Source of the DNA: Tubiluchus corallicola
Taxonomy: Eukaryota; Priapulida; Priapulimorpha; Priapulimorphida; Tubiluchidae
Reading direction: 5' to 3'
DNA: 64,000 nucleotides
Assembly (NCBI GenBank): GCA_030141605.1
Contig: JAQGDQ010000531.1
Coordinates: forward strand, 84,501 to 148,500
Each line of letters starts with the position of its first letter. Within the stretch, counting starts at the first letter, position 1. This document shows, one piece after another, positions 7,090 to 63,010 of this stretch. The position numbers and the translations under genes were made by a program. Below the pieces are notes generated by a model. The model saw only the letters and a program-made list of their open reading frames with translations. It was not told the DNA's origin and did not search any database.

Positions 7090-8097
7090 TTATTTAAATG
7101 GCTTCTTTCTTCCTATGAAATATACTCCTGTCTCATTGCACTTTCGCTTTAAACTTTCTGAAGTTGGTTCTCTATTAACAAAAATGGGTTCGAATGCAGC
7201 TAAGAACTTTTCCACCACGAGTAATGATATTCTAATTGGGTGAAGCTTAAACGATCCCAACACACAGTTGCCTTGTTCTGGATCTTTGTACCATCTTTCA
7301 TGCCAGATTATTGTGCCATTGTCTTTCAATAATGTGTGGGCGTTGTGAAGAAACAATAGAGCATCCTGTACATGTTCTATTACATTGATACTAATGAGCG
7401 TATCGAATGTACCAGGTTTAGAGAACGTTTCTGCTGGAGAAGAGACAATTGTTGTTGGGTAATTGAGAATTTTACCATTTTTGTATGTACATGTTTTTAC
7501 GTGTTTCATGTACAAATCAGCCATTGGTTCAACAAGTGTGACGTGACTCACATTTACTTGTTGATTGTCTTTTAAGATATAAAAACTTTGAGTAAATGGA
7601 CCGGCGCCAATTTCCACTAAGTTACCCACGTCTTTTAGTAGCCGTTTGTAACCATGGAAACCTTCTACATGTTCATTTGCACGGTCACCTTGAGGCCTTT
7701 TAATAGTCCATCTACTTAGCTCCTTCTCCTGGGCAGCTTTCCATAAGAACATTGGCACTTGGACTATACCCGTTTGTGGATTCATAAAACAACTCGCCGA
7801 CAAAGAAGTTTTGGGCATGTGTTTGTCATACGTTAAAGATTGCCTTAAATTAGGGCACTCGTTCAGCCTGTTGTTATTAATCAGAAGCTTTTCACAACAT
7901 TGTTCTCCACTGTATCCAGGATGGCAAAAACAATAGTTAAAATACCAACTTCCATGAGGATGACAGGCACATCTGCTGCCAATAAACGATTTTGCGCTAT
8001 TTTGCCGTTGATTTTTCAAAATCATACAGAAAACTGTTAGTAACAACAACGTGGCAGGTAACTTCAATTTTGCCGTGTTCCTCAAAAAAGAATACAT
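7090..8097 (-). CDS. Type II membrane EGF-like/SAM-dependent methyltransferase
   Basis: Predicted 335-residue protein from the ATG at 8097; the frame extends slightly upstream but with no ATG. Residues 1-10 form a basic tail and about 12-28 (PATLLLLTVFCMIL) a signal anchor, so the enzyme should face the Golgi or ER lumen. A Cys-rich stretch (C43, C45, C56, C58, C67, C68, with the HPGYSGEQC pattern) resembles part of an EGF-like module. The C-terminal two thirds is a class I methyltransferase: motif I VEIGAGPF (161-168), an acidic post-I LVEP (188-191) and FDTLISINVIEHV (231-243). Class I folds of this kind bind S-adenosylmethionine. The acceptor cannot be read from sequence; a glycan hydroxyl is my inference from the neighbours. 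It appears to be a single exon, divergently placed to the sulfotransferase gene that starts at 9929. Confidence 0.85.
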   Translation of the reverse strand: MYSFLRNTAKLKLPATLLLLTVFCMILKNQRQNSAKSFIGSRCACHPHGSWYFNYCFCHPGYSGEQCCEKLLINNNRLNECPNLRQSLTYDKHMPKTSLSASCFMNPQTGIVQVPMFLWKAAQEKELSRWTIKRPQGDRANEHVEGFHGYKRLLKDVGNLVEIGAGPFTQSFYILKDNQQVNVSHVTLVEPMADLYMKHVKTCTYKNGKILNYPTTIVSSPAETFSKPGTFDTLISINVIEHVQDALLFLHNAHTLLKDNGTIIWHERWYKDPEQGNCVLGSFKLHPIRISLLVVEKFLAAFEPIFVNREPTSESLKRKCNETGVYFIGRKKPFK

Positions 8098-9928
8098 AGC
8101 TTCGTTAAAAATGAACAACTTTGAAGATAAATGACCTGAGCTTTTTTATCACAGAAATTTTAGTTTCATTAACACCCACGGATTTATACAGATCAAATAA
8201 GTAAGAAAACATCCATTTATATTTTTGTTTGTAAAAAGTTCCCCAAGATCCGTGCAAAATTCCTATGCGTATGCTATGTGCTTGAGCAGGCTTGCAGAAT
8301 TTATTTTTTAATCCATGTCCCCACCAGCGACAAGGGACGAAAGTGCAACCCCAACTCCTACAACAGAGTGTTTTGTGATAAAAAGTATGCAGTAAAAACT
8401 CTTTTTTTCAGTTGAACATTCACTGGTAAGTTTAAATATTCGCAAAACTTCCATTTTCCAGTTCGATTTTCGCATTTTGCTTAAATCTAGTAAAACAGTT
8501 CCATAATTTAAACCTTTTTGGAGTCTAGGAAATGCCTCTGATTTTGTTCATACGCTAATAACGGTCATGTAGACGAAAATTGTGCGGTAAAGAAAAATGA
8601 ATCGCAAGTTTTATCGTCTGAGATTGAGACATATAAGTGACACTAGAGCTGTTCTAGAGGCTTCATTAGAATAACATATAAATCTACTGACAAAACCTCC
8701 ACATTTTGTAAAACACCCGGTAGGAATTTCTATGCAGTGTTGCAACGTTTATACCCTGGATTCAACCACTTCGTATAGTTTTCACCTGGGGGATACCAGG
8801 GATAGTAAAAGTTTTTCACAGATTGTTTCGACTTTCTCATTTAGCTAAGGTCTTCAGTCAATGCGCTATTAGTGATGTTATTGTCAGTAAAAATATGAAA
8901 GTGAATACAGGGAGATGTTACCATAAGAGAAATTTCGCTGCGAAGTAAAATTGCTCCAAAATCTTGTCTCGTTATCAGAACAACGTGAATTGTAGTCCTT
9001 CTTTGTTCATACTGATTAACATAATAATTTGGGAGAGAATTAATCCTGTAAAAAGTTCATTATAAAATAGTATAACAGCATAAATATGAAAAAAAACTAG
9101 CAAAAAAGTTTAAACTTCATTGCCAAACTATCTATTACTACCAAAATGACTTGACGTTTTTTTTTCAATGCATCTTTAGAGAACTCAATCTGGCTTCTCT
9201 AGTTAAGAAAAAATTACACGATAGCCAAATGTGACCAGCACGAAGAGGATAGAAACGCTGAACGTTGGCGTGTAGACACACACATTTTAAAAAAAGACTT
9301 AAAGAAGCCTACTTTGCTGTTCGAATTTTCAACTTAAATATACACCTACTATAGGAAATGGTAATATATCAACGCAGATCTAAAACGCTGGCTATTTGAA
9401 AACTGATCAACACACAACATTTTTCAGTGTTTTCACTGAGAAAGAACTGTCTTTCAAGAAGCAATCTGTGAGTCGACGTTTTCCAAATATTCACTCTGCC
9501 ACAGCTCATTAAAGCAGAAGAAATAGAGAAATATTCTTCTTTCGCAGAAATAGCCTGACGCGATTTAGCAAAGGATAAGAAGCACAACTTCTCAGAAATA
9601 TCTTTCTGAAAAACTGTCAGCAAAACCTCGTATACCTGTTAAGTTTTTTTTCAAATGCGCAGTATTTTATAAAGTAAGTTTGTCGGGAGATTTTATACGT
9701 TACGACTGCTAGTTGATCAACATGAATACGAGTGTGTGACGCATGTGGAAAAATTTGAGTAGTACTTGAAAATGTACTATTGTTGTTGAATCTGTCAATA
9801 AGTATAGAACGTGTCACGTAAACGTAATGCCAGATTTAACTGACATGAACTAATAAATACTAGACACATTTGCAAGTTCAACGCTTTACATTCGATGAAT
9901 AACAATTTGTGTGTTGCAAAACTCAAGC
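8098..9928. other. Divergent intergenic region between methyltransferase and sulfotransferase genes
   Basis: It should hold the promoters of both flanking genes. I could not pick out a convincing TATA box or initiator. Two minus-strand frames at 9.37-9.82 kb match nothing I recognise. An ATG at 9895 begins a 16-codon upstream frame that overlaps the sulfotransferase start in another frame and could dampen its translation. Confidence 0.4.
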
Positions 9929-12900
9929 ATGAGATATTTTTCTAAATCAATACGGATCAAATTCGTGTGTGTTTCAATAACATTAACGTTGGCTCTCGTT
10001 TTTTACTTATATATCTACACACATCCGTTAAACGAAGGTAAGATAAAGCAAGATGATGAGCGATCTATCAATTAATTTAGTTGATCATTAAACCCAAAAG
10101 AATGGTCAATATTCAAGAATTACTAAAACTAAAGTTGGATTTTAACGTTAATCATACAAAACGAATAAATTTTACAGTATAAATTTCCAAGAGGCTTACC
10201 AACGGTCAACAGCAGATTATTAATTTAATTCTTTTTTTTAATATTTGAATTTTGGTCGATTTATACTAAACATTGTAGTGTGTAAACAGGTAGTACTTTT
10301 TATCCTTCTGACAATGTATAAGAAACGTTGAATGCCCTTTATAACCCATAATAAGTTGAAAAATTACAGGCGGAATGTTTAAACAATACAATATCAGTGC
10401 GAAAGAAGAACATTAAAAGAAAAGTTAATAGTTGAACATAATTGACCTGAAATATGATAAAAGTTAGAGAAAGAGTAAAAAACGACTGCATAGGAAGAAA
10501 AATTGGAACACTATGCAATTGGTATTGATGAATACGTGAATTGATTGAGCTGCTAACCTGAGAGTGGCATTTACAGAATTTGCAATAAAGGGTATTCAAC
10601 GTTTTTGTACGTTAAAGGTTGCATGCTCACGAGAGGGCTCTCATATTTTTTACAAACTGGTTGAATAGCTGAAACTTCGTTGAACTGTTGAACGGTAATT
10701 AGTAAGACAAAATACAAAGATCAAAGGTTCAGTAGGTATCATTTTCATAAAGATCTCGTTAAGTATTAAAGATCATTAATTTTGACTAGTGAGCAATTTG
10801 GCGAGTTTGTTTGCCTTTCACAAAATCTTTACAATTTTAGGAAGCTTGTTATGCAGGTCGTTAATTAGTGACGGGTCTGAGACAGGCATTAGCCCTTACT
10901 ACCCAAAAATGTGATGTCGAATTTTTTGTTAACTGCTGTGGGAAACCAACGCAAAGACGTTTTCTTAGAGGTTTTAGAGGCAGAGTGGGCTTTTTAGATT
11001 TTTATGATCGGTAAGCTTAATTTTGCATTACTGGTTACATATAATTACAAAATTGGACGCCCTTTCAGTGTTCTCAAAGCAAGATTTAGATCCTTGTATC
11101 ATTCTAATGGTATGTTTATGTACACGGTTAATAGCAGATGATGGATAAAAGTATTATTTATTTTGATACAAAATATTGGTAAAAGAATCAACGTACCTTC
11201 CCCATTCGGACTTCAAATGCTTGATGCAGAAAAAGAAGAGGAGCAATTAAAAGTCAAATTGAGATTTAAAGTCATAAAGTATAAATGATTGATTAGCTGA
11301 TCAAAGATATTAGAAAAATACAAAAAATAAAGGCATTCTAACAGTTTGTGACGTTTTCCTCGCCACTGTTGATAAAAGATAACAAATAAACAACTAAGCA
11401 ACATTAAAATATTTAAAAGGCTTTGTTAAAGTAATAATATTATTGTTATTATATTATTTATTTCGAACATATTGTTCACATTACAGTTATAAAAAAGTAC
11501 AAAATTATCTAGGAAAAAATAAAAATTTACAATTATAGGATTGGTAGACACTGACAGAAACAATAATACATAAAAAATTAATACTTTAGATTAATTACTA
11601 CTTTAGAATAGTAATTAGATCAAAACAAAGAATAGCAGTACAATACAGATATTACAATTACACATATCCCAAATAACCACATACCTATTACACAATTTTT
11701 ATACATATTACGTTATAACAATGGAAAACACCAATGAAAGGCTAATTAACACAGAGCCAATTTTTAATTTAATTTAAGTTACACTTTTTTAAAAAATCAT
11801 TATTGCATTCAGTAGCATTTTTTATATCTTCTATCACTGGGCAAACGATTTCTTCCTCAGATTACTATCTTTAATTTTTCTCCCTTCATTTTTAGTGAAA
11901 TTAATGCAATAGTTATTATTGTATTTAAAGTTAAACAATTGGTGATAATAACGTAAGATAGATCTTGTTGAAAATTCAGCTTGCCTAGCAAAATTATTAA
12001 CTAATGTATTGTGGCTCTTCGCACAAGATACATAAGATTGCACGAAACGCTTTTCAAACGGTTTATTTGGTCAAGAAAATTTACTGATGTATTTACAAAT
12101 TTTGCAAATGTTATTTTGGCAGCTTCCGTATCCATTGAACAAGCCACATAACACGTTTTAACTAATTAACGAACTATAGTATTTCCACGAGACGTGTGTG
12201 GGTATTAGCCTTACATGTAAAATTAAGAAATTGGTATGGAATTGAATTCTCATGGCACTCATCTACATTCAGTACGCAGAAGGTCTATTATTGCCTTGTC
12301 TCATTCAAAGTCTCATCTCTGGAAAAGATTTAAAATATTTGGCTATCAACACTGATTAGTACAGCAATTAAAATGCCTAGCATGCCACGTAACTTTGTTA
12401 AATAGATTTAATAAGATATATGCTGCAGTTGGAAATGTCGCATTGTGTCCTCACAATATTAGAAAACAGTTGTATTACATGTAAAAGCAAAGTTTAATTC
12501 TGATGCTAATTTACTAAAACTTTAATTTTTATAGTATTTATAAAACAGAAGCAACTTGTAAAACTCTTGATTTTAGTTAATCGATGGACATAAATGGAAA
12601 CATGTTGAACTGCGTTCTTTCGCTCATTGAGCTGTTTGGTTGCACATGATAGCTGTTCAAATTTTTGGTAATTTGTTGCAAGATTTTGATTTTTTTTATA
12701 AACCCATTTAATCAGTTTAATCGTTCAAAAATTGTTTGCAGATTTTACACCTAAGAGAATAGTGAAAGTTTTGTTATCGAAATGCCGGGATTCAAAATAA
12801 ATTAGTTATTGTGTCTCTGCTAGTATAGGCGCTTGAGACTTCCATCATCATTAATGTCGGATTCCTCATCGTAAATATGTTTAGTTTTGAGTTTTGTTGC

Positions 12901-14380
12901 TAAATTTTAATTCTTGCCTAATTAAACGGTTTTGGTAATTATTTGGCCTGGGATTTTTTTTGAAAGCACTGATCGCTATTACTTTTTGCCAAAATTTGTT
13001 TTATTCATTTATTGGTTCTCTTGACATATCTTACTGGTTGTTAACTATTGAATTACTGAAAACATTTTTTTCTTTTAATGTACAAATTTTCCATTTGCTT
13101 GGTGTGAAATAAACAATCTTGAAATCCTGAAAGTCTTGAAAATTTATTTGGTTTTTTGTTTTTTAATTACTATAGCAATTTATTGATACTGCTCCACTAT
13201 GGTTCTTACAAATTCTGTCAACTTAATGTTATCGTTATCATAGTATAATGAGAGATGGGTGGATGCTCGATGACTGAGTTGTCATTCTCCACTTTGTCTC
13301 TCTTAGACCTTGTTATTGTGTACTAACACTTTGTTTTCTCATAACAAAGATATGTGAAATGAACAAATCGATTTAAATTCAAATTAAAATTCAGTTTTAT
13401 TTTATTCACAACTAAATAATTGCAATTCTGTCTAATAAAATAGAAGCTGAACTTAAGTATTAAACGAATTTATTTTGTAAATTTTTCCTTCAGAAAATTT
13501 TGTCTCAGTTTCTCGGCGGACGGTGCTAGTGAAATCGGAAAATTTTAACGGAAGGCGAAAAAAGCTGATAAGAGACACGTGTGAAAAACTCACATTTGAA
13601 AGATTTAACAGTGATATTGCGAATATTATGGATGTAAAACGTTGGCTCGAAGAAACTTATGTAGTGCATAATTACAACTTACTTTACTGTGCTATACCAA
13701 AGGTGGCGAGTACAATGTGGAAAAGCATATTGATGGAGTTAGCATTAAAAAGCAACAAAACTACTGAAACACCTCATGGTTCAAACATCCATGCTGAAAC
13801 GTATTCCTTAATATTTCGCAGAATCTTTAGAGAAAAGAGACGACACGAGGTACTAGAAACTTACAAGAAGTTCCTGTTTGTCAGGGAACCACTGGGAAGA
13901 CTTTTGTCAGCTTACAAAAGTAAAATAGAGGCTGGAAGAACGTTTTTCATCAAACCAATCTACTATTTCTTTCATAAGAATTTTACGAATGTCACCATAT
14001 CCTTGTCAAACTGGACTCCCACTTTCGAGCAATTTCTAATCTACATTGTACAAACTAAATTTTCAGAATTAAATGAACACTGGGCGAGATATGTGGATTT
14101 GTGTAATGTATGTTATATAAAGTATGATTTTATAGGAAAGTTGGAGAGATTTGAGAAAGAAGCAACTAGCTTTTTAAAACCCATTTTAACACCAAAACAT
14201 TTAAACTTTGTTGCCAAAAAAATTCAAAACATCGACCTTTTACTGCATTCAAGTGACGTTTTAGTTAAGTACTACAAAAATATATCTTTGGAACTGGGAC
14301 GTATGATACATCAAAAATATTATTTGGACTTCACCATGTTCAATTATAGTTTTAGGGAGGATTTATTTCGAAAACACTGA
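9929..14380 (+). CDS. CHST8-14-type carbohydrate sulfotransferase (two exons)
   Basis: Exon 1 is 9929-10037 (36 codons plus one base). It encodes a basic tail and a signal anchor (IKFVCVSITLTLALVFYLYI) and stops at GAAG|GTAAGATA. Exon 2 is 13494-14380, after TTTTTCCTTCAG. Both ends are phase 1, so the join keeps frame and gives 331 residues, near the family's usual size. Exon 2 alone has no ATG at its head, only an in-frame GTG at 13523. It carries the family's RRKKLIRDTC lead-in, the PAPS 5'-phosphosulfate loop CAIPKVASTMWKS (102-114), the 3'-phosphate motif FLFVREPLGRLLSAY (163-177), and the HWARYVDLC...YDFIGKLE block that marks Sulfotransfer_2 (HNK-1ST, chondroitin and dermatan 4-O-sulfotransferases). 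It should move sulfate from PAPS to a sugar in the Golgi. The exact sugar is unknown. Confidence 0.88.
10038..13493 (+). other. 3.46-kb intron of the sulfotransferase gene
   Basis: It begins GTAAGATA and ends in a pyrimidine-rich TTTTTCCTTCAG. It contains the probable retroelement relic at 11.4-12.1 kb and otherwise AT-rich sequence without a recognisable gene. Confidence 0.7.
11430..12060 (-). mobile_element. Possible 3' end of a retroelement inside the intron
   Basis: The minus strand reads a short frame (11,834-12,043) containing SHNTLVNNFARQAEFSTRSI, then a long AT-rich trailer ending in an AATAAATAATA/ATAACAATA repeat near 11,440. The layout, a coding end followed by an AT-rich trailer and a simple-repeat tail, fits a non-LTR element. 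The protein match is only a family resemblance, so this is weak. Confidence 0.3.
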
Positions 14381-14479
14381 TTGTAGTCATATATGGAAAA
14401 GGCTTAATGTAATCACTTCCTGCAGTTTGGGATTGTAACCACAACAAATTTAAGAATGTGTTTAAAAATCATAAAAGTC

Positions 14480-18007: not shown

Positions 18008-18402
18008 TTAGCAAGGCTGCAATTGCTGCAGATTGTTAACCTCAAAAGGACTTTCTCTTTGCCAGTTGCATTTATCCATCTTTACTGGTGGAACAGAATA
18101 CTTCTTATGCAATGTTGTGTTTTTATTGTACCATACTTTACTCATATTTTCTGTCAAAAGCCATCGGTGTACACTTATATAACGTTCACACAGCTCTTCG
18201 TAATTTTGTATGTTTTCACGTTTGACAGATAAACTAACTTTGCCAGTGTAATGGCGCTGATTGTCGCCAAAGAAATTCAGTTTTTGGTTGGTTTTTTCCT
18301 CCCAAGTACTCCGCCACCATCCAAGAGCAAATCCACCATAATTTGTACATAGAAGTTCTTCTCTACTAAGAATTACAAAGTCTTCATCCATGAAAGCGCC
18401 AC
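18008..18402 (-). CDS. C-terminal exon of a beta-1,3-galactosyltransferase-like protein (orphan exon)
   Basis: The exon opens after a minus-strand TTTTCCCCCAG acceptor at 18403 and runs to a TAA at 18008, about 130 residues. It begins GGAFMDEDFVILSREELL, in the same phase 1 position and with the same MDE-F-SR pattern as exon 2 of the intact gene at 24335 (WRRMDEFFFLVSRNII). Near its end CERYISVHRWLLTENMSKVW lines up with CSKIIVVHQ...IKKIW there and with the C-x-IxVHH...MxxxW signature of Galactosyl_T (GT31-like) enzymes. I found no upstream exon carrying the DDD metal-binding motif on this strand. The sequence immediately upstream looks like retroelement debris. It may therefore be a fragment, or its first exon may be beyond my recognition. 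Confidence 0.55.
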
Positions 18403-19270
18403 CTGGGGGAAAACCAAAGGATGCTTTAGTCGTTTACACCAAGAACACATCACTAGCGACAATTTCAACAACAGTGAGAACAGAAACTGGAAAAACAATG
18501 ATAATGATATGTGAAAGATAATGTTTGTAAACTATTTTACCGTCTTTGTAACAATACTTAATAATTTTTTAAGTGTTTATGTATATTTTCAGCGGAAGTA
18601 TTTCAAACTTTTGCTAAGCATGTATACATTGAACTACCAGTGCAGGTAAATGGTTCCAGTAAAGAGATGCTGTATACATGGCCAGAGTTCAATGCTCTAT
18701 CACGAGGTCTATCAATGCTCTATCAAGAACTATCACGAGGTCTTGTTCAATGACGACGTTTTCCTGATTGTCAACCATTACATTAAAAGCTTGAGTTGAA
18801 ACTTGTGTATTTGCAGGAAAGTCGACAACCCACATTTGCAGGTTAATTAGACTGGTTGAAAAATTGTAGACTGGTCAAATCATATTGTTCAAATCATTGT
18901 TTTAGATCAGCAATCTGTAATTGAGATGAGAGTAGTGCGGCACTGAGAAATTAAGTTTAAAAATACAACTTATAATAATTAACAGTAAATTTCAGAATTG
19001 GAAACTAAATTCTGAAGCACAGCTCGCATCTGTGACAAACTGGTTGAAAAGCTAAAAGGTGCAATTTCATGGTGAAGTGGAATTCCTAGATAATCCAGAT
19101 AAATCGTAGAGTTCTATAAAAACAAAATTACGTATTAACAATTTTGTTCAAAGAAACTACTGTTTGGACGTGGCAGTCTGTGGGACACACTTCAGTCATC
19201 ATCGCATTCATATTCTCAGCAATAATTAGAATTAGTTTGTTGGTATCTTCACTAGGTAACTCAGGCATGC
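18403..19270. other. Upstream of the orphan exon; no gene assigned
   Basis: A plus-strand open stretch at about 18,592-18,752 (beginning AEVFQTFAKHVYIELPVQV, after a TATTTTCAG) looks coding-like but has no partner exons and no family I recognise. No minus-strand exon that could precede 18402 in phase 1 was convincing. Confidence 0.3.
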
Positions 19271-19277
19271 CTTCTAT

Positions 19278-22317: not shown

Positions 22318-23304
22318 TTATGCAATGCAATTTTCCCCATATTTGTCAAGGAACCAGTGATAGTTTAATTTAGCACGGCGGATCTTTTTGTTAACACCAG
22401 TTAACCAATTATTGTTTATCAAATAAGGATGTAGAGCTTGTCTATGAGTGTCTGAATCTCTGTAAATCATTCCATCTGCAATAAAATGATATGGATACAA
22501 TGCACACCTTGCATTTGCGAATTTGTTTTTGCACAAGAAGTCCATCACATCATCAGCATGCTCCCCGTTGGTATCTCTTTCTGCAATATGAACCATTTTT
22601 TGCCATATGGCTATGCCACTAGATGTGGCGTTAACAAAAATATAGCTAAAGCTTAAGTTTGAAGCTGCTAAATTGCGGCCAGATTGAGCTGCCAAGATGT
22701 CATAATCTCTAAACTGAGACAAAACCAAAGGAAGTGGATTTTTTATCCAAATTGAGTCAGTTTCAAAAAGTTGGAACGAAATCTCACTTTGCAAAATAAA
22801 TAAAAGAAGTTTTATCCATTCCAAGGTTAACACATGATGCTCGCGAGACCCCGATGAATACTTTCCCTGGAGATTCGCTTTAGTTCTATAATGATAAATA
22901 TTTAAGTCTGGCCACTTTGTCAATAACCTTTTGGCTGTGTTTTTATCTGTTGTGATAAAAACAACTTGTTCATGAAGGTTCATATTTCTAGTGTTACATA
23001 GCCAACTCTCGACGAATTCACGAAATCCTTTGTTAAAAAGTGTGATTAATGGAAGCTTTCTTTTAGATGTTATATTCTTAAGTATAAGAAGCAAGCTATG
23101 CTTGTTACTTGGAATATTAAATCGGCTCGGTCGTTTTTCAATTTGTCTAACTGCCATTTCGTCAAGCCATTTTTTGACAACTTCGCCTTTTGATAACAGA
23201 TTGCCTGTGCTAGCACGATTAATACCATTCAGATAGACACCGACGCCGTATATCAAAAATACGCATAGCACAACCAATACGATGCAGTATATTTTGTTGC
23301 GCAT
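22318..23304 (-). CDS. Nucleotid_trans (GT77-like) type II glycosyltransferase, paralog A
   Basis: Single-exon gene for 328 residues starting at an ATG with A at -3. Residues 5-25 (IYCIVLVVLCVFLIYGVGVYL) form a signal anchor after a short basic end. The body matches the nucleotide-diphospho-sugar transferase family PF03407: KGFREFVESWLCNTRN (92-107), VVFITTD (114-120), then FQLFETDSIWIKNPLPL (177-193), whose ETD (181-183) takes the place of the DxD metal/nucleotide-sugar motif. The NNNWLTG (297-303) and NYHWFLD (314-320) blocks close the domain. It shares order, length and most motifs with the 30980-31969 gene, so the two are duplicates. The donor and acceptor sugars cannot be read from sequence. 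It is divergent from the 24080/24335 genes. Confidence 0.85.
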   Translation of the reverse strand: MRNKIYCIVLVVLCVFLIYGVGVYLNGINRASTGNLLSKGEVVKKWLDEMAVRQIEKRPSRFNIPSNKHSLLLILKNITSKRKLPLITLFNKGFREFVESWLCNTRNMNLHEQVVFITTDKNTAKRLLTKWPDLNIYHYRTKANLQGKYSSGSREHHVLTLEWIKLLLFILQSEISFQLFETDSIWIKNPLPLVLSQFRDYDILAAQSGRNLAASNLSFSYIFVNATSSGIAIWQKMVHIAERDTNGEHADDVMDFLCKNKFANARCALYPYHFIADGMIYRDSDTHRQALHPYLINNNWLTGVNKKIRRAKLNYHWFLDKYGENCIA

Positions 23305-24334: not shown

Positions 24335-25738
24335 ATGATAAAAGCTAACGTAACTAAAATAGCAATTCGTTTTCTAATACTAGCTGTTCTCGTTTATTAT
24401 GTATGCATTGTAGTGATGAAAACTGAACTACTGCTCTTGAAAAATCGCAATAAGTTCGACATGAAAATTCATTATGCAGAAAACGTAACTGGCACCAAAA
24501 GGAAAATATTGCTCTTTGTAGGAATCACAAGTGCACATAAGGAGAGAAGGGATGCAATTCGGTCATCATGGATGAAATGGTGCGATGACTTTGATGATGT
24601 GATTTGTCTATTTTTCATTCAAGCACAGGATATGTTTGGAGAAAGACTTGATGATGTGACTTTTAGCCAACTTACAGACGAAACTAAAATTCACGGAGAC
24701 ACTATATTGGCAGATACACCTGGCGGTTTGAATTTTGGAAGACGTTTAGTGTGGATGTGGAACTGGGCTTTCCACAGATACGATTTCAAGTACTTTTTAA
24801 AAATAGACGACGACACGTTTTTGTGCTTAAAAAAAGTAAGAGCAGAACTGATTGTGCTGCCATACGAAAAAGTAAATTGGGGATACAGACACTGCGAAAA
24901 AACTACAGGTATGGAATTTTTTGTTCCAAAATGAAAATAAATCTAGATACAACTTATAATTTGCTCAAACTATATCTTTTTAGGGTTTGTAGAGTAAATG
25001 TTATTGGAAAAATGTCTTGCAGAAAATGTCTTGTTAGAATCACTGGTTTTGACATTAGCTTGCATACATTATGAGAGTTTTCTGCGTTATCTTCCAATTA
25101 TTTAGTAAAAAGTGAAAAAAATAATTCGTTCTTGTCAATTCTTATTCAATTGATTCCATAAAAGAACTAGTCCTTTCTTCTTGTGACAGCTACAACCATA
25201 ATGTTCATATTGGCAGATTTTCTAAACAAAATTAGCTGTTTGTGATAGAACGTTATAATTTTTGACTTTTTTCTTAGGCTGGAGGCGCATGGACGAATTC
25301 TTTTTCTTAGTATCAAGAAATATTATTCAAGAGATTCTACGTAAATACTGGGCAAATTCACTTTTGTGTGATGAACATGCTGCAATATCTGCAAGAGTGT
25401 GGCTTTATGAGATTAACAATGTCACATACTTGGATGATAATGCCAGGTTGCTCATAAACTTTGACAAGCATTTTCAGTTTCGCTCTCATGACATGTGTAG
25501 CAAAATTATTGTCGTTCACCAGGCCTATCCACCCGAGATAAAAAAAATTTGGGATTTGACAAAGGAATCCGTGCTTTATGAAAATTATACGACCAGTTTT
25601 TTCAAAAGTTGTCCTCTCGGCAAGCCTACATATGAAAACAAACGTTTTAAATATTGCCACAACGAGACGTTTACTAGGACAGGTTTCTATGCTGGAGGAG
25701 AAGCAAGATTTTATAAGCGATATCAACGAATGGGTTAA
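24335..25738 (+). CDS. Beta-1,3-galactosyltransferase-like protein (two exons)
   Basis: Exon 1 is 24335-24908 (donor ACTACAG|GTATGG). Exon 2 is 25278-25738 (acceptor TTTTTTCTTAG). Both boundaries are phase 1, so a 369-base intron is removed in frame to give 344 residues. Residues 10-28 are a signal anchor. Galactosyl_T (PF01762/GT31-like) landmarks follow in order: ILLFVGITSAHKERRDAIRSSW-like start (58-79), DVICLFF (88-94), DTPGGLNFGRRLVW (127-140) and the metal-binding KIDDDTFL (156-163). Exon 2 adds RRMDEFFFLVSR and CSKIIVVHQ. The usual EDVYxG box is weak (CDEHAAISA). It should transfer a hexose from UDP-sugar to a glycan in the Golgi; linkage and sugar are not inferable. An AATAAA at 25,891-25,896 is a likely poly(A) signal. 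Confidence 0.8.
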
Positions 25739-28160: not shown

Positions 28161-28199
28161 TTATCCTTTTCTTACTATTCTTCTCGCCACCCCTGCATC

Positions 28200-28530
28200 C
28201 TACCAGAGACAGATTCGAGGACCTTCCCAAGAGAAGCTAACTTCAGCAGCAGGCATAGTTTTCAATACGGTTTTCAACCGACTTGGTCAAAAACAAAAGC
28301 TAAGCAATCAGGCTAGCAATATGCATAACTTGCATTGGTTTACATTTGTGACATTTTTTAAATCTATTTGCTACCCGTTTCGTGACCTTGCAGTTTTCTT
28401 CTTCTTTTTTTTAACACATGCCTTCGGAAATTTTGTGAGGCTGTAAAGCTTCTCAATGCAAAGTGGTGCAGGATTAGCGCATACCTCTGACAGAGAACAG
28501 TGGCAGAGAAAATGCTATTCTTCTTGGGAT
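28200..28530. repeat. Dispersed repeat R1, copy 1
   Basis: About 330 bases closely match 35,447-35,769 in the same orientation, starting AGAGACAGATTC and containing AAGAGAAGCTAACTTCAGC, ATATGCATAACTTGCATTGG and ACATGCCTTCGGAAATTTTG. The short minus-strand frames found in both copies follow from this and are not supported as genes. Confidence 0.85.
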
Positions 28531-31969: not shown

Positions 31970-32501
31970 TTCAGGACCGTATGTAAAACCGAGAAACCAT
32001 ATGCCACATACGGCTATGCGATGGCAAATCTATACGTGATGTTCGCACACTTTTTCAAAAATTATCTTTCGCAACTAACAACTGCGCCAAAAAGTTAACG
32101 TTACGTTGGCATTTTTCAAAAGTTCGGCAAACTTAACTACTAAATGTTGCGAAATTGAGCGTTTGTGTAGATTTGTTTATTTGCAGATGAAAAGTGGATA
32201 AAATAATAACATATTTAATACGCAGAAACAGGAACTGGAATGTACGAACAGAAATTGAAGTATAAAACAACAATCTACACAAAAGTACCATCTTAAACTG
32301 GACAGATTTATTGAAAGTAATTTCACTCTGATGTGCGTGATTTTTTTCTATAGTGGTGGGACTTATTAAGAAAACAATTCATTCATGCTGATGATCATTT
32401 TATAAGACGATTTAATGTGAAAATAATGTTTTTTTGAGCTACAGGACGGATAGAAGAAATTTTGAAGTGCGCGATGTTCTGAGGTCATTAGAAAGACAAA
32501 T
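31970..32501. other. 532-base divergent promoter region
   Basis: The two outward-facing starts at 31969 (-) and 32502 (+) are close enough to share a bidirectional promoter. No clear TATA box or named factor site was identified. Confidence 0.45.
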
Positions 32502-48100: not shown

Positions 48101-48994
48101 ACTTTCAATTATCTGACATCCAAATCACGCTGACAGAGCTACTTCAATAAAAGTTTTAACAGACAAAAATTTTTCTCAGAGATTGTAATTTTAGTATTGT
48201 TTTCGTACGGTTATAAAAATGATGTGGCAGTTGACAAAAGTCATTGCTTGGTCTGAGAATTTTGCAGCTTGCAAATCAAGGCGAGACATAATAAATTGTG
48301 TATGTAGTTGTCAGCGCAACAGTGAGCAAGACGAGATAAGGAAGAGATTCTGAAATAAGAAACCGTGAGTCTTCAGTCAGCACGATGCAAATGAAACCAA
48401 TCTAGAGAGTGAAAATAATTAAACCAATCATCCAAATACTACAGGCGCAAAAAACGTAAATGGGGCCTGGAACAAATTATAAGAAGCGTAATATTAACTT
48501 TGTTCAGCCATTTCACTCTAATTCAATGCAATTATTTCTTTAAATGAACTGAAAAGAATTGGTTACATCCCGTTGTGACATCCCGTTGTGTTAATCTTCG
48601 TCAAATCTGAGCTTCAATGTTGGAATCAGCTGTAACGTTACTATGTTCCAAGCTTGACATCTATTATGTAAGGACAATATTTTAACCCTCTATTTCTGAC
48701 TCTTGTATGGGAATGTACTGCACATCTCAAGCTTTGTAGAAACATTTGTATTTAAATAAGAACATTTCAAAATGTATATCGCTATTGAGGACTGTTGAGA
48801 ACTTTGCCGATCAATGCAAAAGAGCAACGATTTAATAACTGCCTATTGCCTGCGTAAGTAAATGCTTAGCCAGCAAATTTAACATGCAGGCCTAACACTC
48901 TAACCACTGGATTTCGTATCTAAAGAAGTTATAGTTTTTGTGTATTTTATGTATGCAGTTACGTTACCTGCAGGCAGATTATGCTAGATTGTTA

Positions 48995-51821
48995 CTTGAG
49001 CTGTGCTGGATTGTTACCTTAAATGCGTTCTATGTTTTTCTGTAAAACCTGCATATAACTTCTAGTAGTAAGTAGTGTTGTGTTATAATTATATTAAATA
49101 TTTGTCACCAGTGAGCAGGCAATTTAAGACAACATCTTAAAAACTTGTTTAAAGGCTTAACACATTGTGTCTACCACAAAGTTATTAATTAAGTAAAAAG
49201 TAGCTTAATACAAATTTATATCTGTTGCATAATTATGTAACTTTTGTAATCTAAGACAAATAGCACGAAATTTCAAACTAAATGGTAATAATAGATAAAT
49301 GGTGTGGGATTCATAAATTTATCGATTTTGCAATCTATTATCATACATCTCCTACTGTCGCTCCTACATGCAGTTGGTACGGAATTATTGCATGGTTTTA
49401 TAGAGGTACGAAGTACAGCACTTCTATCGTACAAGTCAGCATGATTCCTTAACAGCATAGCTTTATCAGGCATTATTCCAAGATAATTGTAAAAATATGT
49501 ATTGAAATCTGAAAAAAGGCTATTTTTTCCACATTAGCCTATTTTATTGGTCTTGTCCGGTATACCTTATTGGTATACCTTGTCCTGGCCAATCACTACA
49601 TAAATTACTTTCCAATATACTTTTTCCTAGTGTGGAAAATGGCTTTTGCTATATACACTGGTGCTGCTGCAGTTAGGTGCATTATATTTTCGTCTGACAC
49701 ATCATCTCTGCGTACTTGCAGAGATTCGAGCCAAGAACTGCTCGGGACTTTATCTTGTCTGATAAATTGTAGCTCTTTAGCTTCACGTAAGAATCTTATG
49801 TGCCAAGGCTTCGGATTTCATTACTGAATTGAAAATGTTTCCTTATCTCTTCTTTCCAATGAGCGAAGAATTTGTATCAAGCCAAATGTCCTTTTAAGCT
49901 AATATTCCTATAAGAAATGTTTGTCTTATCATGTTTATTATGTTTTTCGGTTAAATGATGAGCATTTGGAAAGAAACATTGCACCATGTTTGAGACAAAC
50001 GTGCATCATAAATCCCACGACAGTACTGGACATTGCAACGAATTAGGAAATATACTATACATTCTAAACTTTCCAGAAAGTGTAACAGTTGCTGTCAGAT
50101 TATTTTCCCTTTGCTTATCCATACAGCAAGGTGTAGTGAAACAAGTTGTTGCCGAAACTTCCTGCAAACATTCTCGCTGTTATGTAACACAGAGCTGGAT
50201 CTATTGAATGCAAAATGCCTAATATTTGATGCAAAATGTAAATCTGTAGAATATTTTGATTTTGAGCCTTGCCTATGTTATAGAAAAATGGAATTTCATA
50301 ATTGTATTGAACAAAAACTAAGAAAGGCACATGCTTCAATGTATTAAGTGATTAAAGTGAATAATAAAAAAATAAATAACCGAGTGCGATTTCCAATAAG
50401 ATTCTGCTAGATGCAGAATCTAAACTACTTGTCAAATACACACAAACAGTGATGGGAAAATTTCGTTTCTGAATTCACGGCCTTTACAGTGCACTGTTAT
50501 AACTCAAAACTCAAAGTCAGGTAGGTGAGAATGCTGCGTTATTGATGACCTATTTAACTGGCACGTTTTATGCCTAATAAGTTAGAACCATCCCTGCTGT
50601 GATTAGCTGAAATCAAAATAATTTAACAGAGAATTTAATGCCATTCTTATCCAAAAATTCTTATCCAACGTCTCACACCATAAATGTGATAGCGTGTTAA
50701 GGAAGTGTAAAAGAAGATTGCCAATATGTCCCCCCGTCATGTTTTATACATTGACCGAGCAACATATAGTAAAAACTATATATGAGCTAGCTCACATCTC
50801 CCTACTGCCCAAGGAAATGATTACACAAGCAACAGGATCTTCAATTACTACAATGAACAAGACAATGTATTATTTGTGATTCTTGTCAGTGTTCTCAAGT
50901 TCTTAGGTAAACAGACTCATAGAAAATATTGTTTAATATATATATGTATACGCGTCTATTACATAGCGTTACAATGGTAATATTACCTATCAGTTCTAAT
51001 CCTCGAAGAACTTGTGGAGACGTGCTGACATTGGATAACTCTGTGAAGATTTTCTTATACTGATTTATTTCAGTTTTTTGAGTGGTTGTCATGTTGCATA
51101 GGCATGACAAATCTGTACAAAAGTATATAGCAGAGTATTTGTTTTGTAGTAATCACAAAAACTTTTATTTTAAATTCTATATTACAGATAAAGTCAAATA
51201 TATGGCAATTTCTGCACTTCCAATGAGTAGACTAAAAAACGCGCTCAATTCTGATTGGCTGACTTACTAAAATGCATATAACGAAGCCAAGTTTTACAGA
51301 CAATTCTAAATAAGTACAACATTAGACTAAAGGGCAAGCAGAGAGAAACCTTCCGAACATTTCTCCCCTCTTTGATAAGTTTTAACAAAACATATCAACA
51401 AAAGCTATTAATCTAGTCAAAATAAACAATGTAACTAGTTTTACTAAACCGTTAGTTTTCCATACAACCATCAATACACATAGCAGTGGAAGCTAAATTT
51501 TAAGTTTTGACTGTTACAAGTTATTCTAACATTTGCTAATTAAAATTTTTCATTCTGTGCTACATAACGTTTACGTTTAGCTACGAAAAACAAAATTCTT
51601 GCAAACTTTAGCAAGTAGTACGAAAACGAAAAATCGCAAAATCATAGTAATAATTTTCTGTGGTGCTGATCATCAGCAGTGTTTGTAGAAACTTCACTTT
51701 TTTGTCGGTTTTTCTTCCGCAATGAACTCCAGAGGCCAGAGTTTGGTAATTGGTCGTAAATGTTCACTATTGCCAATCTTCAGTTTTGCAACTCGAGTGT
51801 GCCAGTCGCTACCAAGGTAGA
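48995..51821. repeat. Tandem segmental array, unit A (about 2.83 kb)
   Basis: It begins at CTTGAG before CTGTGCTGGATTGTTACC and ends at the matching CTTGAG of unit B. Unit B repeats it almost throughout with scattered substitutions and indels. Small frames inside (for example 49,986-50,207) occur in both units with amino-acid changes but without a clear pattern of selection. An acceptor-like TTTGCTTATCCATACAG is conserved at about 50,108-50,126 and 52,815-52,833. No gene was recognised. Confidence 0.85.
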
Positions 51822-54246
51822 CTTGAGTTATGCTGGATTGTTACTTTAAGTGCGTTCTATGTTTTTCTGTAAAAGCTGCATATGACTTCTAGTAGTAAGC
51901 AGTGTTGTATTAAAGTTATATTAAATGTTTGTCACCAGTGAGCAGGCAATTTAAGACAACATCTTATAAACTTGTTTAAAGGCTTAACACATTGTGTCTA
52001 CCACAAAGTTATTAATTAAGTAAAAAGTAGCTTAATACAAATTTATATCTGTTGCATAATTATGTAACTTTTGTAATCTAAGATAAATAGTACGAAATTT
52101 CAAACTAAATGGTATGAAAATTAATAATAGATAAATGGTGTGCGATTAATAAATTAATCGATTTTGCAATTCATCATTAAACACCTCCTGCTGTCGCTCC
52201 TACATGCAGTTGGTATGAATTTACTGCAGGGTTGTATAGAGGTACGAAGTACAGCACTTCTATCGTACTATACCGTACTGCCAAGCTTGGCTGAGGACAC
52301 CACGAGGACACTACATAAATTACTTTCCAATATACTTTTTCCTCGTGTGGAAAATGGCTTTTGCTATATACACTGGTGCTTCTGCAGTTAGGTGCATTAT
52401 ATTTTCATCTGACACATCATCTCTGCGTACTTGCAGAGATTCGAGCCAAGATCTGCTCGGGACTTTGTCTAAATTGTAGCTCTTTAGCTTCACGTAAAGA
52501 ATCTTATGTGACAAGGCCTTGGTTTCATTACTGAATTGAAATAGTTTCCTTATCTCTTCTTTCCAATGAGCGAGGAATTTGTATCAAGCCAAATGTCCTT
52601 TTAAGTTAATATTCCTATAAGAAATGTTTGTCTTATCATGTTTATTACGTTTTTCGGTTAAATGATGAGCATTTGGAAAGAAGCATTGCACCATGTTTGA
52701 GACAAACGTGCATCATAAATCCCACGACAGTACTGGACATTGCAACGAATTAGGAAATATACTATACATTCTAAACTTTCCAGAAAGTGTAACAGTTGCT
52801 GTCAGATTATTTTCCCTTTGCTTATCCATACAGCAAGGTGTACTGAAACAAGTTGTTGCCGAAGCTTCCTGCAAACATTCTCGCTGTTATGTAACACAGA
52901 GCTGGATCTATTGAATGCAAAACGCATAATATTCATAATGAATGCATAGTATTTGATACAAAATGTAAATCTGCAGGATGTTTTGATATTGAGCCTTGCC
53001 TATGTTATAGATAAATGGAATTTTATAATTGTATTGAACAAAAGCTTAGGAGGGCACATGCTTCAATGTATTAAGTGATTAAAGTGAATAATAAAAAAGT
53101 AAATAACTGAGTGCGATTTCCAATAAGATTCTGTAAGATGCAGAATCTAAACTGCTTGTCAAATACACCCAAATAGTGATGGGCAAATTTCGTTTCTGAA
53201 TTGGCAGTCTTTACAGTGCACTGTTATAACTCAAAACTCAAAGTCAGGTAGGTGAGAATGCTGCGTTATTGATGACCTATTTAACTGGCACGTTTTTGTG
53301 CCTAATAAGTTAGAACCATCCCTGCTGTGATTAGCTGAAATCAAAATAATTTAAAAGAGAATTTAATGAAATTCTAATCCAAAAATTCTTATCAACGTCT
53401 CACACCATAAATGTGATAGCGTGTTAAGGAAGTGTTAAGAAGATTGCCAATATGTCCCCCCGTCATGTTTTAAACATTGACCGAGCAATACATAGTAAAA
53501 ACTATATATGAGCTAGCTCACATCTCTCTACTGCCCAAGGAAATGATTACACAAGCATTTCACATATTGCCAATATGTCCCCCCGTCATGTTTTATACAT
53601 TGACCGGGCAATATATAGTAAGAACTATATATGAGCTAGCTCACATCTCTCTACTGCCCAAGGAAATGATTACACAAGCAACAGGATCTTTAATTACTAC
53701 AATGATTGTTGTCAGTGTTCGCAAGTTCTTACGTAAAAAGACTCATAGAAAACTTTGTTTAATATACGCGTCTATTACATAGCGTTACAATGGTAATATT
53801 ACCTATCAGTTCTAATCCTCGAAGAACTTGTGGAGACGTGCTGACATTGGATAACTCTGTGAAGATTTTCTTATACTGATTTATTTCAGTTTTTTGAGTG
53901 GTTGTCAGGTTGCATAGGCATGACAAATCTGTACAAAAGTATATAGCAGAGTATTTGTTTTGAAGTAATCACAAAAACTTTCATATTAAATTCAGTATTA
54001 CAGATAAAGCCAAATATGTGGCAATTTCTTCGCTTCCAATGAGTAGACTAAAGAACGTGCATAAATCATAGTAATAATTTTCTGTGGTGCTGATCATCTG
54101 CAGTGTTTGTAGAAACTTCACTTTTTTTGTCGGTTTTTCTTCAGCAATGAACTACAGAGGACAGAGTTTGGTAATTGGTCGTAAAAGTTCACTATTGCCA
54201 ATCTTCAGTTTTGCAACTCGAGTGTGCCAGTCGCTACCAAGGTAGA
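51822..54246. repeat. Tandem segmental array, unit B (about 2.43 kb)
   Basis: A direct repeat of unit A that lacks several hundred bases present in A (around 51,290-51,640). It carries an extra internal tandem copy of about 115 bases (roughly 53,444-53,559 and 53,567-53,680, both containing GCCAATATGTCCCCCCGTCA). Confidence 0.85.
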
Positions 54247-54666
54247 CTTGAGTTATGCTGGATTGTTACTTTAAGTGCGTTCTATGTTTTTCTGTAAAAG
54301 CTGCATATGACTACTAGTAGTAAGCAGTGTTGTATTATAATTATATTAAATGTTTGTCACCAGTGAGCAGGCAATTTAAGACAACATCTTATAAACTTGT
54401 TTAAAGGCTTAACACATTATGTCTACCACAAAGTTATTAATTAAGTAAAAAGTAGCTTAATACAAATTCATATCTGTTGCATAATTATGTAACTTTTGTA
54501 ATCTAAGATAAATAGTGCGAAATTTCAAACTAAATGGTATGAAAATTAATAATAGATAAATGGTGTGCGATTAATAAATTAATCGATTTTGCAATTCATT
54601 ATTACACACCTCCTGCTGTCGCTCCTACATGCAGTTGGTACGGAATTATTGCATGGTTTTATAGAG
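54247..54666. repeat. Tandem segmental array, truncated unit C
   Basis: The first about 420 bases of the unit, matching 51,822-52,240 and 48,995-49,408, then an abrupt change of sequence after ATAGAG at 54,666. Confidence 0.85.
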
Positions 54667-55520
54667 AGACCGAGAAGTTCCGTACTGACACAACCGTCGA
54701 CATATTAAATATTCCCTTGTCTTTAGACTGCGAAAATAAAAGCCACGAGTAGAAAATACGGAATTAGTAAAAAATCTCGAAATGGGGAATTTACTTATGA
54801 ATGGTAAAGGGCCGGATTTAGGTCCTGGAGTTCCAGGCTAGTCCAGGTTCAGGGCCCCTCAATATAAGAATGAAATTACACAGCAAATAAAAAACTGAAC
54901 TAAAATGAATTATAAACCGCATTTATTCGAAAAATATGTCAGCTGCCGACTGAAACCTTTGATTCTATTTTTCTCAATTTTAGTGACTGTAAGAATAACT
55001 TTGACTACACTTTTCAGTTTGTAATAGAGGACATAGTGATACAAATTGTACTGGTGACTATCTGGCGGTAGTGCACGGTAAAAATGGCACAGACAAAAAA
55101 GTAGGAAAAAAATGACACGTATGTTATTTTGATGTAGCTGATTTCTAGAATAAAACTAGAATGCGTTCGTAGGAAGCAGATCTCTGTCAAAGCTGAACAA
55201 TTCTAAACTTTTTAGTCTGATACTTTTCATTATAGAAAATTAGCAAAAATGTAAACAAGAAAACGTACAACACGTAGCTGTATTTTCGTAGTAGCTGTAT
55301 TTTGTGACTAGCAACATAGTCACAAAATATTTGTTCATTAAATAGGTTTATAGTCAATAATGCACGACTGTTCCACATATTGTATATCTATCTTTTTAAC
55401 CTTCAAGTTTCGCGATGGTAATAGAGAGGCAAATATACGTACCAAGTCTTCTTTAAAGGCTATACTAATTACTAAGTAAAGATTATAGATTACAGTAAAG
55501 ATACAATACAGTAAGATTAC
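54667..55520. other. Gene-less stretch
   Basis: A locally GC-richer patch at about 54,800-54,865 (GTCCTGGAGTTCCAGG palindromic words) sits in AT-rich sequence. No gene or known element was recognised. Confidence 0.4.
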
Positions 55521-55530
55521 ACAGTAAAAA

Positions 55531-57600: not shown

Positions 57601-57615
57601 TACGATATAGTAGTT

Positions 57616-58701
57616 CTAGCAATGGTCGATCGAGAGACATAGATACATATCGTCATCCAGTCTTAGAAAATACTCCTGTTCTCTTGCCCACTTCATGGCA
57701 TAAAGTAGTCGTCTAGCAAAATTATATCCACCAGGCGTGTGGTTATCAAAAACAACGTCGCCATACAGGGCAGCTTCCTTTCGTAAGATGGCGTCCATTT
57801 TTTCTGGAACATGTTTCCGAATTCGTCCAGTTTCTCAGTGAAGAAAATGCATATGACATCAGAGTAAGAATCCGACGACCAGTCCACGGAGCGCAGTTTC
57901 ATCTCGGAGTTAGCAACCTCATTTCTCTCTCTAATTTCATAATCTAACCAAACTTTCTGCTGATCTGTTTCTTGGAGACCTGTAAATAGTAGCAGCTTTT
58001 TCCCGTGCCAACAGGATCCCTGCCTAGTTCCTCATAGCGTAGCAGCATGTAGATGTTGGGATACTTGCTGGCAATTACTTTGCTTGTTTCCAACTCTTCT
58101 AGCATATATCTGCACAAATCTGAAACGCCTGAAACAAGTTTTGTATTGCCTTCTTTTGCACGACGAAGCCATCCCCGAGGGTCACGGATGAGGTGTACGA
58201 CTCTGACATCTATCAGTGGGCCATTAAATAATGGAATCACGTCTATTAGTCTGGTACATATGGTTTTAATCGCCACGTGTTTGTACAGTAGCCAGAAACC
58301 ATTAGCTTTGCATTGCACAGCATCAGCGAATATCATAGATTTCACTTCACTCAAAACTGATGCATTAGTTTTTCTTAATCTATCAGGTCTTTCATGTCTC
58401 CATCAGTTTTTCTTGCCATTTCGTCTAACCAGTTAAAATCTGATGCTAATGACCTCACATTGAATCCTGCGTGTAGAGGCTCGTGTATGTAAGACACGTC
58501 CCCATGGTTATTAAAGTAGGTCCCGGGAAATGTTGATCCGGAGTGGAATCGACATAGCACAATTATTTCCTTCTTTCTAGATGTCAGGTGATCTGAGAGA
58601 CTCAAATGACCTAGTTGAAAGTGGTCTTCTTTATGATTGTTCTCTTCTAACAAAAGGCCTCCAGCTATTCTTGCAATATTTGCAAAGTAAAGTCCAGACA
58701 A
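57616..58701 (-). pseudogene. Broken chimera: CHST1-7-type sulfotransferase followed by a GalT-like domain
   Basis: Minus strand, three frame breaks. Part 1 (58,701-58,392) has the PAPS loop IIVLCRFHSGSTFPGTYF and HEPLH. Part 2 (58,390-58,000) has VRVVHLIRDPRGWLRRAKEG (3'-phosphate motif) and RYEELGRDPVGTG, the C-terminal part of Sulfotransfer_1/Gal-GlcNAc 6-O-sulfotransferases. Part 3 runs without a gap from the sulfotransferase end (LLLFTGLQETDQQKVWLDYE) into SDVICIFF. Part 4 gives HTPGGYNFARRLLYAMKW and LRLDDDMYLCL, the first-exon core of the beta-1,3-GalT-like family, then a stop. Each break lies in an A run (58,390-58,392; 57,997-58,001; 57,797-57,802), and each would be mended by one extra A. 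That fits either base-calling errors or slippage decay. The GalT C-terminal exon is missing. No clear start or signal anchor was found; an ATG at 58729 is in another frame. Confidence 0.75.
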
Positions 58702-58729
58702 CTTTAAACAGGTTTGCGTGCTGCTTCAT

Positions 58730-62650: not shown

Positions 62651-62719
62651 ATCCCAGTGTGTTGTGGAGAATGCTCCATGCCCTCAATTCGTTGGAAGCT
62701 GCCAATGCCTTAATAGCAG

Positions 62720-63010
62720 TTACTGTGACCCGCCTTTGTAATATAAATTAGGTTTTGTAATATATTCTCTATTTTTAAGATTACAAAACTCTTTAGAGAA
62801 AAATGTCAGTTTTGTATATACATCATTTGATACACCTAGAAACTGGCTCAACCAGTGGGTGGTTTCTTCGTCTAAGTTTTCAAATTTGCCAATAAAGTTG
62901 TAATTAATAAAACACATGCTGCATAAGTCCACACATCTATCAAAACGTTCGTCCATTTTATCGTCTTCTGTACGAATCATGTATCCCAAAAAATTCCACA
63001 TATCTAGCAA
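62720..63010 (-). pseudogene. Sulfotransferase (CHST8-14-type) relic, C-terminal part
   Basis: About 95 residues without a start codon (the frame opens at a TTG). WNFLGYMIRTEDDKMDERF then RCVDLCSMCFINYNFIGKFE align with FLIYIVQTKFSELNEHWARY and VDLCNVCYIKYDFIGKLE of the intact gene at 9929-14380. The frame ends early after NLYYKGGSQ, where the intact protein continues YYKNISLEL, and the transposon fossil starts soon after. Neither the PAPS loop nor the 3'-phosphate motif is present. The upstream side dissolves into the 67-base repeat, so this is a broken gene or an exon left from one. Confidence 0.7.

Follow-up and report, generated by a model that had tools for sequence, protein, structure and literature searches.

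A mixed cluster of putative Golgi glycan-enzyme genes in the priapulid Tubiluchus corallicola and the genome-wide co-location of its families

Introduction

Animal genes that serve the same pathway are generally held to lie mostly apart in the genome. A stretch of the genome of the priapulid Tubiluchus corallicola (assembly GCA_030141605.1, contig JAQGDQ010000531.1, here C2337) raises the question of why genes for unrelated glycan-modifying enzymes stand side by side in an animal, and whether they do so by chance. The window, by which we mean the whole stretch analysed, is 64 kb long, gap-free and of about 35% GC, and covers positions 84501-148500 of the 152.6-kb contig. An earlier note on this DNA had described a cluster of unrelated glycan-enzyme families, and both the Pfam assignments and a genome-wide excess of such neighbourhoods bear it out: the cluster is real and non-random. 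We incline, if only slightly, to the reading that this genome has several dozen mixed Golgi glycan-enzyme clusters, the window among them, which arose by duplication and reshuffling and whose families are linked by selection.

Results

Composition of the core cluster

The core of the cluster (7090-37740, 31 kb) holds seven intact-looking genes of six families, where eight intact genes had been counted before; Pfam places six of the seven. They encode a Rossmann-type methyltransferase, a Sulfotransfer_2 sulfotransferase, two glycosyltransferases (GTs) of family GT77, a GT31 galactosyltransferase (GalT), a GT13-like GT-A transferase and a DUF268 protein. The Pfam matches thus place a methyltransferase and DUF268 together in the core. 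Several GT families are adjacent, with two PF03407 genes, the PF01762 gene and the weakly assigned GT13-like gene lying within 11.3 kb. Three divergent neighbour pairs follow one another, namely methyltransferase/sulfotransferase, GT77a/GalT and GT77b/GT13-like. Hydropathy and two spliced gene models gave proteins of 328-360 residues, with an N-terminal hydrophobic span in all seven models. The claim of a signal anchor at every intact N-terminus holds for most of the genes; the span of DUF268 is weak, and the sulfotransferase open reading frame (ORF) has no anchor of its own, its span lying in a predicted exon.

Ratios of nonsynonymous to synonymous substitution rates (dN/dS) between four core genes and their paralogues were 0.13-0.37 overall, showing purifying selection at the protein level. 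The comparisons comprised four for the methyltransferase, five for DUF268 (one of them saturated) and one each for the GT13-like gene and GT77b.

Genome-wide co-location of the families

The assembly (343.5 Mb, 2344 contigs) was searched for the families, and cross-family pairs of loci within 50 kb were counted against a null model of uniform placement on one line, which is conservative for contig ends. For six families with 244 loci, 106 cross-family pairs were found at distances of at most 50 kb, compared with 6.5 expected. There were 83 pairs against 6.0 when the window's contig was left out, and 49 against 5.3 when its two recent duplicates were removed as well. A neighbour from another family was present at 88 of the 244 loci, whereas simulation gave 12.9 (maximum 30 in 500 simulations). 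GT10 fucosyltransferases, a glycan family not found inside the window, had been predicted to join these neighbourhoods. They did so at 18 of 62 loci, whereas simulation gave 4.3 and no more than 12 in 2000 runs; without the window's contig it was 17 of 61 loci against 4.0. A search with a single fragment gave 22 loci of the second sulfotransferase type. Eight of them were near other families, compared with 1.9 by simulation, and two of these eight are 2.3 kb apart. Second or short pieces had been dropped before the counts: 3 of 95 rows for Sulfotransfer_2, 5 of 54 for the GT13-like family, 6 of 68 for GT10 and, for the second sulfotransferase type, 1 of 23, which was the window itself.

With seven families, duplicates collapsed and the window dropped, 62 pairs lay within 50 kb, compared with 8.0 expected. 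In the collapsed set of seven families, 84 of 265 loci had a neighbour from another family, where simulation gave 15.5 and at most 33 in 1000 runs. The collapse, in which loci of equal score were identified by eye as duplicates, removed contigs C2337, C974, C2300, C870, C1850, C865, C2075, C2092, C2341, C2082 and C2123 and three further loci. Mixed clusters of at least two of the seven families occurred on 36 contigs before collapse, 11 of them with at least three families, and on 31 contigs after it.

Two control families behaved differently. Rhodopsin-like G-protein-coupled receptors (GPCRs) were near glycan loci at 11 of 147 positions, with 12.6 expected, and at 14 against 24.0 expected when the distance was widened to 100 kb; the positions used came from the matches listed, out of 164 in all, and scoring covered 147 of the 1297 first-look candidates. 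For P450 genes the count was 1 of 51 against 4.3 expected, 51 of 96 matches being kept after identical blocks and second pieces were collapsed (92 of 472 candidates scored). An equal density of such genes throughout the genome, which the earlier note had named as a check on its proposal, was therefore not what the counts gave: the families are unevenly spread and aggregate at many places, and the two control families do not join them. Its remark that such clusters are uncommon in animals needs qualifying, given the 36 contigs that hold mixed clusters here and a precedent in Caenorhabditis elegans (passages of PMC7614267).

Duplication and reshuffling of the clusters

A block 92-95% identical is common to C2337, C974 and C2300. 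The head-to-head GT77b/GT13-like pair, including the 532-bp gap between its ATGs (31970-32501), which may be a shared promoter, is retained on C974 and C2300 at 92-95% DNA identity, so that this pair was duplicated recently; the head-to-head arrangement was seen only in these two duplicates. On C2300 the pair is followed by DUF268, and the GT77 and GT13-like frames are split. Region 22270-69539 of C2300 is an inverted duplicate of the core, in the order Sulfotransfer_2, DUF268, GT13-like, GT77 and then the mirror image. Its Sulfotransfer_2 and GT13-like matches contain stops and its GT77 frame is the split one; the region may be a true palindrome or an assembly artefact.

Elsewhere the families meet in other ways. 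On C889 and C1850, GT13-like genes 42-43% identical to that of the window lie 4-5 kb from a GT77 gene, in tandem on the same strand. The closest methyltransferase copies (92% identical), on C19 and C1850, lie 17-24 kb from distant GT13-like genes (43-44%). The same family set was not found as a recurring unit; the 36 mixed clusters vary, and most of the set is common to the recent duplicates only. Outside these duplicates the clusters thus share families and not whole blocks, which points to duplication with reshuffling.

The assembly itself holds redundant sequence, as indicated by a block that occurs in identical form on 13 contigs (C2, C14, C457, C628, C1781, C1850, C2066, C2159, C2185, C2200, C2228, C2254 and C2271). 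Three P450 exon matches keep a constant spacing in this block, whose recurrence reflects redundancy or misjoins. In its gene content the genome looks like that of an animal, with 147 scored rhodopsin-like GPCR loci, GT-AG introns and an abundance of GT31, GT10 and CHST-type genes.

Explanations of the co-location

Each core gene would encode a type II Golgi membrane enzyme in which a signal anchor and a stem precede a catalytic domain in the lumen; the Golgi location and the substrates named here are putative. GT77, GT31 and the GT13-like enzyme, and GT10 elsewhere, would extend or branch glycans. The sulfotransferases would transfer sulfate from 3'-phosphoadenosine 5'-phosphosulfate (PAPS), and the methyltransferase, perhaps with DUF268, may transfer O-methyl groups from S-adenosylmethionine (SAM). 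Clusters would arise through repeated duplication of genes and segments, with pieces shuffled among clusters, and the different families may have stayed together or come together again instead of scattering at random. The likeliest cause would be selection, acting either to keep the genes in a common chromatin or expression domain or to maintain cassettes of decorating enzymes that are used together. Duplication of a cluster could then yield a new combination of glycan decorations. Shared expression and selection on linkage are what we infer in this account.

Several observations weigh against selection on linkage. The null model ignores the difference between gene-dense and gene-poor regions, a weakness that the control families answer in part only. 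Many loci stand alone, with no member of another family at distances of up to 50 kb (7 of 16 GT77, 46 of 58 GalT, 44 of 62 GT10 and 56 of 92 Sulfotransfer_2 loci). Strands are mixed in the clusters, and family make-up differs from one cluster to another. Among 34 neighbouring pairs, hand-picked at distances of at most 20 kb with duplicates collapsed, 15 were tandem, 12 divergent and 7 convergent (p = 0.38 against random). Mixed strands with no orientation bias speak against an operon or a general bidirectional rule, and an operon or bidirectional-promoter rule was rejected on this ground, the orientations being as expected by chance.

The main rival is genomic drift with segmental duplication, which we consider possible but rather doubtful. 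Fast-duplicating, mostly single-exon families would have mixed by chance in unstable, repeat-rich regions and then been copied as segments, with no function in their proximity. The common block of C2337, C974 and C2300, at 92-95% identity and with broken copies in the inverted duplicate on C2300, is what drift would leave, as are the debris and repeats that fill the right half of the window, the short contigs on which a number of clusters lie and the mixed strand order. Yet the excess survives the collapse of near-duplicates (62 pairs against 8.0), the GT13-like genes of different clusters often share no more than about 40% identity with that of the window, and GPCR genes, which are also numerous and mostly have long open frames, are not drawn in. 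Inflation of the counts by uncollapsed haplotypes and repeated contig blocks is very improbable. Redundancy does exist, in the P450-bearing block on 13 contigs and in C910/C870 and the two halves of C2300, which look duplicated; but the window cluster is gap-free, the signal was kept after exact-score duplicates and the near-duplicate contigs found were removed, and the core differs from C974 in gene spacing and order, unlike alleles. Redundancy would moreover have inflated the uncollapsed GPCR control too, which was not inflated.

The proposal of the earlier note, that the seven enzymes act successively to make one sulfated, O-methylated glycan, we regard as improbable. It is in keeping with complementary activities encoded within 31 kb, with purifying selection on the four genes tested, with three consecutive divergent pairs and with the 532-bp spacer kept on two other contigs. 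Family make-up, however, differs among clusters; GT10, not found inside the window, joins the other families elsewhere; strand order is mixed; the methyltransferase copies on C19 and C1850 neighbour distant GT13-like members (43-44%); and no family set recurs whole outside the recent duplicates. Because make-up varies among clusters, the claim of a single glycan is less likely than a looser reading, in which shared regulation or repeated reshuffling would keep neighbourhoods of decorating enzymes together. A bolder extension of the latter, in our view fairly unlikely, is that Golgi transferases, sulfotransferases and two sorts of methyltransferase are recombined again and again in dozens of modular decoration cassettes, that each cassette writes a different sulfated or O-methylated epitope in a particular tissue, and that the methyltransferase and DUF268 are the sought invertebrate glycan O-methyltransferases.

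An origin from viruses or bacteria was also considered and rejected. Viral contigs yielded no relative of DUF268, of the methyltransferase or of GT77 in searches by short exact peptide patterns, with which a single-protein query reaches close relatives only; DUF268 relatives were not found in plasmids and phages, nor GT77a relatives in phages.

Relation to known gene clusters

Clusters of this kind are already known, the nearest precedent being the 'glycoclusters' of C. elegans (C13A2.1-12, K06H6.1-6 and T15D6.1-12; PMC7614267). According to passages of that paper, they combine GTs from several families with potential methyltransferases, NDP-sugar transporters and DUF268 proteins. The encoded proteins have a single N-terminal membrane span and typically 300-600 residues, and the genes are partly similar in expression; whether linkage reflects consecutive functions is unknown, the same passages state. 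The window resembles the glycoclusters in its adjacent single-span Golgi-type genes, its several GT families and its putative methyltransferase and DUF268 protein. It differs in having GT77, GT31 and GT13-like genes and two sulfotransferase types, and in that the genome-wide excess was measured against controls. DUF268 is also treated in a part of PMC3534327. DUF273, DUF1647 and sugar transporters were absent from the Pfam scans of the window, with no genome-wide search aimed at them. Bacterial polysaccharide gene clusters likewise place unrelated sugar-chain enzymes side by side; the window, unlike these, has no operon, since its genes lie on both strands with large spacers between them and two of the gene models contain introns.

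Methylation and sulfation of invertebrate glycans have been reported. According to parts of PMC8699351 and PMC10301044, mollusc N-glycans contain hexoses methylated at the 3-O and 4-O positions, and those of some species also carry sulfate; no sulfate was found in C. gigas N-glycans. Such reports imply that enzymes of this kind must exist; the two studies report chemistry and not genes, and the word 'methyltransferase' is absent from both main texts. No other animal glycogene cluster was recognised among the matches listed from the open-licence PMC literature, as judged by titles and the beginnings of abstracts. Within the literature searched, the membership of sulfotransferases, GT77 and GT10, the genome-wide excess with negative controls and the occurrence in a further animal genome are new.

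Throughout the genome, seven unrelated families of putative Golgi enzymes are drawn to one another, and the two control families are not. Guilt by association thereby becomes a usable guide: any little-known family that recurs near glycan genes, with DUF268 and the GT13-like family as examples, becomes a candidate glycan enzyme. The clusters also supply candidates for glycan methyltransferases, including the fucose-modifying one that, in a passage of PMC7614267, is still to be identified.

Genes of the core cluster

The methyltransferase gene (7090-8118, minus strand) has its first ATG at 8097, a signal anchor and a cysteine-rich, EGF-like stem. Its description in the earlier note as an EGF-like methyltransferase holds for the enzyme, which matches Pfam PF13489, PF08242 and PF08241 (Methyltransf_23, _12 and _11); the stem has no Pfam EGF match. 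The genome has 12 loci of this family, 44-100% identical, all of which were aligned and none of which has internal stops. The dN/dS values were 0.13-0.30 against four of the 11 paralogues.

DUF268 (36658-37740, plus strand), with a weak signal anchor (best 19-residue hydropathy 1.38), was assigned to PF03269 (E = 3.4e-28), as its earlier label implied. There are 17 loci in the genome, 13 of which entered the alignment, and dN/dS was 0.20-0.37 against four paralogues, the fifth being saturated. The protein may have a methyltransferase fold. Its domain layout, judged by eye, resembles that of a SAM methyltransferase, a suggestive but not significant likeness: hhalign of the DUF268 profile against the methyltransferase profile gave a non-significant E of 0.081 and a probability of 0.7%, with the later motifs in register. 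No PDB match was obtained for DUF268, and no Pfam methyltransferase family matched among the 13 members even at E 10. A single-sequence AlphaFold (AF2) model was unusable, with a predicted local distance difference test (pLDDT) score of 33.5.

The main exon of the Sulfotransfer_2 (CHST-type) gene lies at 13494-14380 on the plus strand and matches PF03567 over 13523-14380 (E = 4.7e-40); the genome has 95 matches. The ORF begins behind a good acceptor at 13493. A predicted exon 1 at 9929-10037 on the same strand, with a Met, a strongly hydrophobic stretch serving as putative signal anchor and the donor GTAAGA, is in frame with this acceptor, and the joined frame has 331 amino acids. Exon 1 is a prediction only, since nothing in the 5.9 kb that precede the C974 copy aligned with it.

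Both genes described earlier as GT77-like belong to PF03407, which has 16 matches in the genome. GT77a (22318-23304, minus strand; E = 2.1e-24) has a signal anchor of hydropathy 2.87 and an E-T-D motif; GT77b (30980-31969, minus strand; E = 9.3e-26) has one of hydropathy 2.22. The scores were 87.1 and 91.5 bits, respectively, against a cut-off of 22. The two proteins are 38% identical, and their silent sites are too diverged for dN/dS; for GT77b the value was 0.24 against the C974 copy. A D-x-D motif is expected for GT77, and E-T-D was invariant in all nine aligned copies from the 16 loci.

GalT is divergent from GT77a, with 1.03 kb between the ATGs. This intact gene has more than a single exon and consists of exon 1 (24335-24908, plus strand; PF01762, E = 2.3e-7; signal anchor of hydropathy 2.75), a GT-AG phase 1 intron of 369 bp (24909-25277) and exon 2 (25278-25738), which is in frame and gives a joined protein of 344 amino acids. 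Galactosyl_T has 58 matches in the genome; 18 of them, that of the window included, stop at profile positions 102-111, which suggests a common exon boundary.

The gene at 32502-33569 (plus strand) encodes a putative GT-A transferase with a signal anchor and an EDD motif, the latter invariant in six aligned copies. It had been called GT2-like; neither GT2 nor GT13, nor any other credible Pfam family, matched it or two of its paralogues. The best lead was POMGNT1 (GT13), with a phmmer E of 0.034. A profile built from six of the 49 loci gave a single PDB match, again POMGNT1 (5ggf), which was weak (E = 0.0054) and covered the nucleotide-sugar domain, so that any relation would be distant at best. 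The gene thus appears nearer to GT13 than to GT2, and the label GT13-like is used with caution. It has 54 matches in the genome and a dN/dS of 0.27 against the C974 copy.

Fragments and repeats in the window

The three sulfotransferase loci of two families reported earlier were all recovered, that is, the main gene, a fragment at 62.7 kb and a broken gene of the second type at 57.87-58.7 kb. The last of these (Sulfotransfer_1; 57870-58725, minus strand) shows frame changes and internal loss. Relatives with long open frames are present on C461 (84% identical) and C77 (82%), and that on C461 has an intact frame of 390 amino acids and scores above the PF00685 (Sulfotransfer_1) cut-off. Next to the broken gene, with the junction near 57870, is a broken GalT-like piece with a DDD motif (57619-57869, minus strand). 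It matches PF01762 at 57619-57834 (E = 8e-5; 22.9 bits, the cut-off being 23) and, by tblastn, GalT exon 1 (44% over 55 amino acids). A second tblastn piece at this debris overlaps the end of the neighbouring sulfotransferase. A fusion of the sulfotransferase to the start of GalT at 57.6-58.0 kb was rejected, as the intact relative shows that part of this region is the sulfotransferase's own end. The earlier note had named two GalT-like fragments; the piece at 57.6 kb stands, and the second, perhaps the ORF at 18011-18433 (minus strand), is unproven. This ORF matched GalT exon 2 in a single BLASTP comparison (E = 0.004) and has no credible Pfam match.

The remaining Sulfotransfer_2-like fragment (62723-63070, minus strand; PF03567, E = 1.3e-4, 22.6 bits against 22) overlaps a 67-bp tandem repeat. 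Fragments of this family recur near that repeat, at 62723-63259 in the window and as four further tblastn pieces at 148501-152607 of C2337.

Between about 38 and 57 kb no gene of the core families was seen, by a scan that short-exon genes would escape. Pfam searches of 277 of the 363 other ORFs of at least 48 amino acids gave, beyond the two known fragments, five single matches with E values from 2.5e-4 to 0.009 (TBK1_CCD1, TPR_Vps8, DUF6358, Corona_5a and NCH2), which is chance level for 277 queries; no transposon domain was among them. The window had no tRNA or Rfam match, and NCBIfam gave only weak matches far under the cut-offs.

At 48871-54693, stretches of a unit occur in two to three direct copies, 66-98% identical and spaced 2.4-2.8 kb apart, with no credible Pfam domain in the scanned ORFs. 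An interspersed repeat of about 340 bp has copies at 28189-28524 and 35431-35767, which are 95% identical and 7.2 kb apart. To the left of the window, 24-26 kb away, broken GT10 and Sulfotransfer_2 pieces are present at 58995 and 60467 of C2337, indicating that debris of the cluster reaches past the window.

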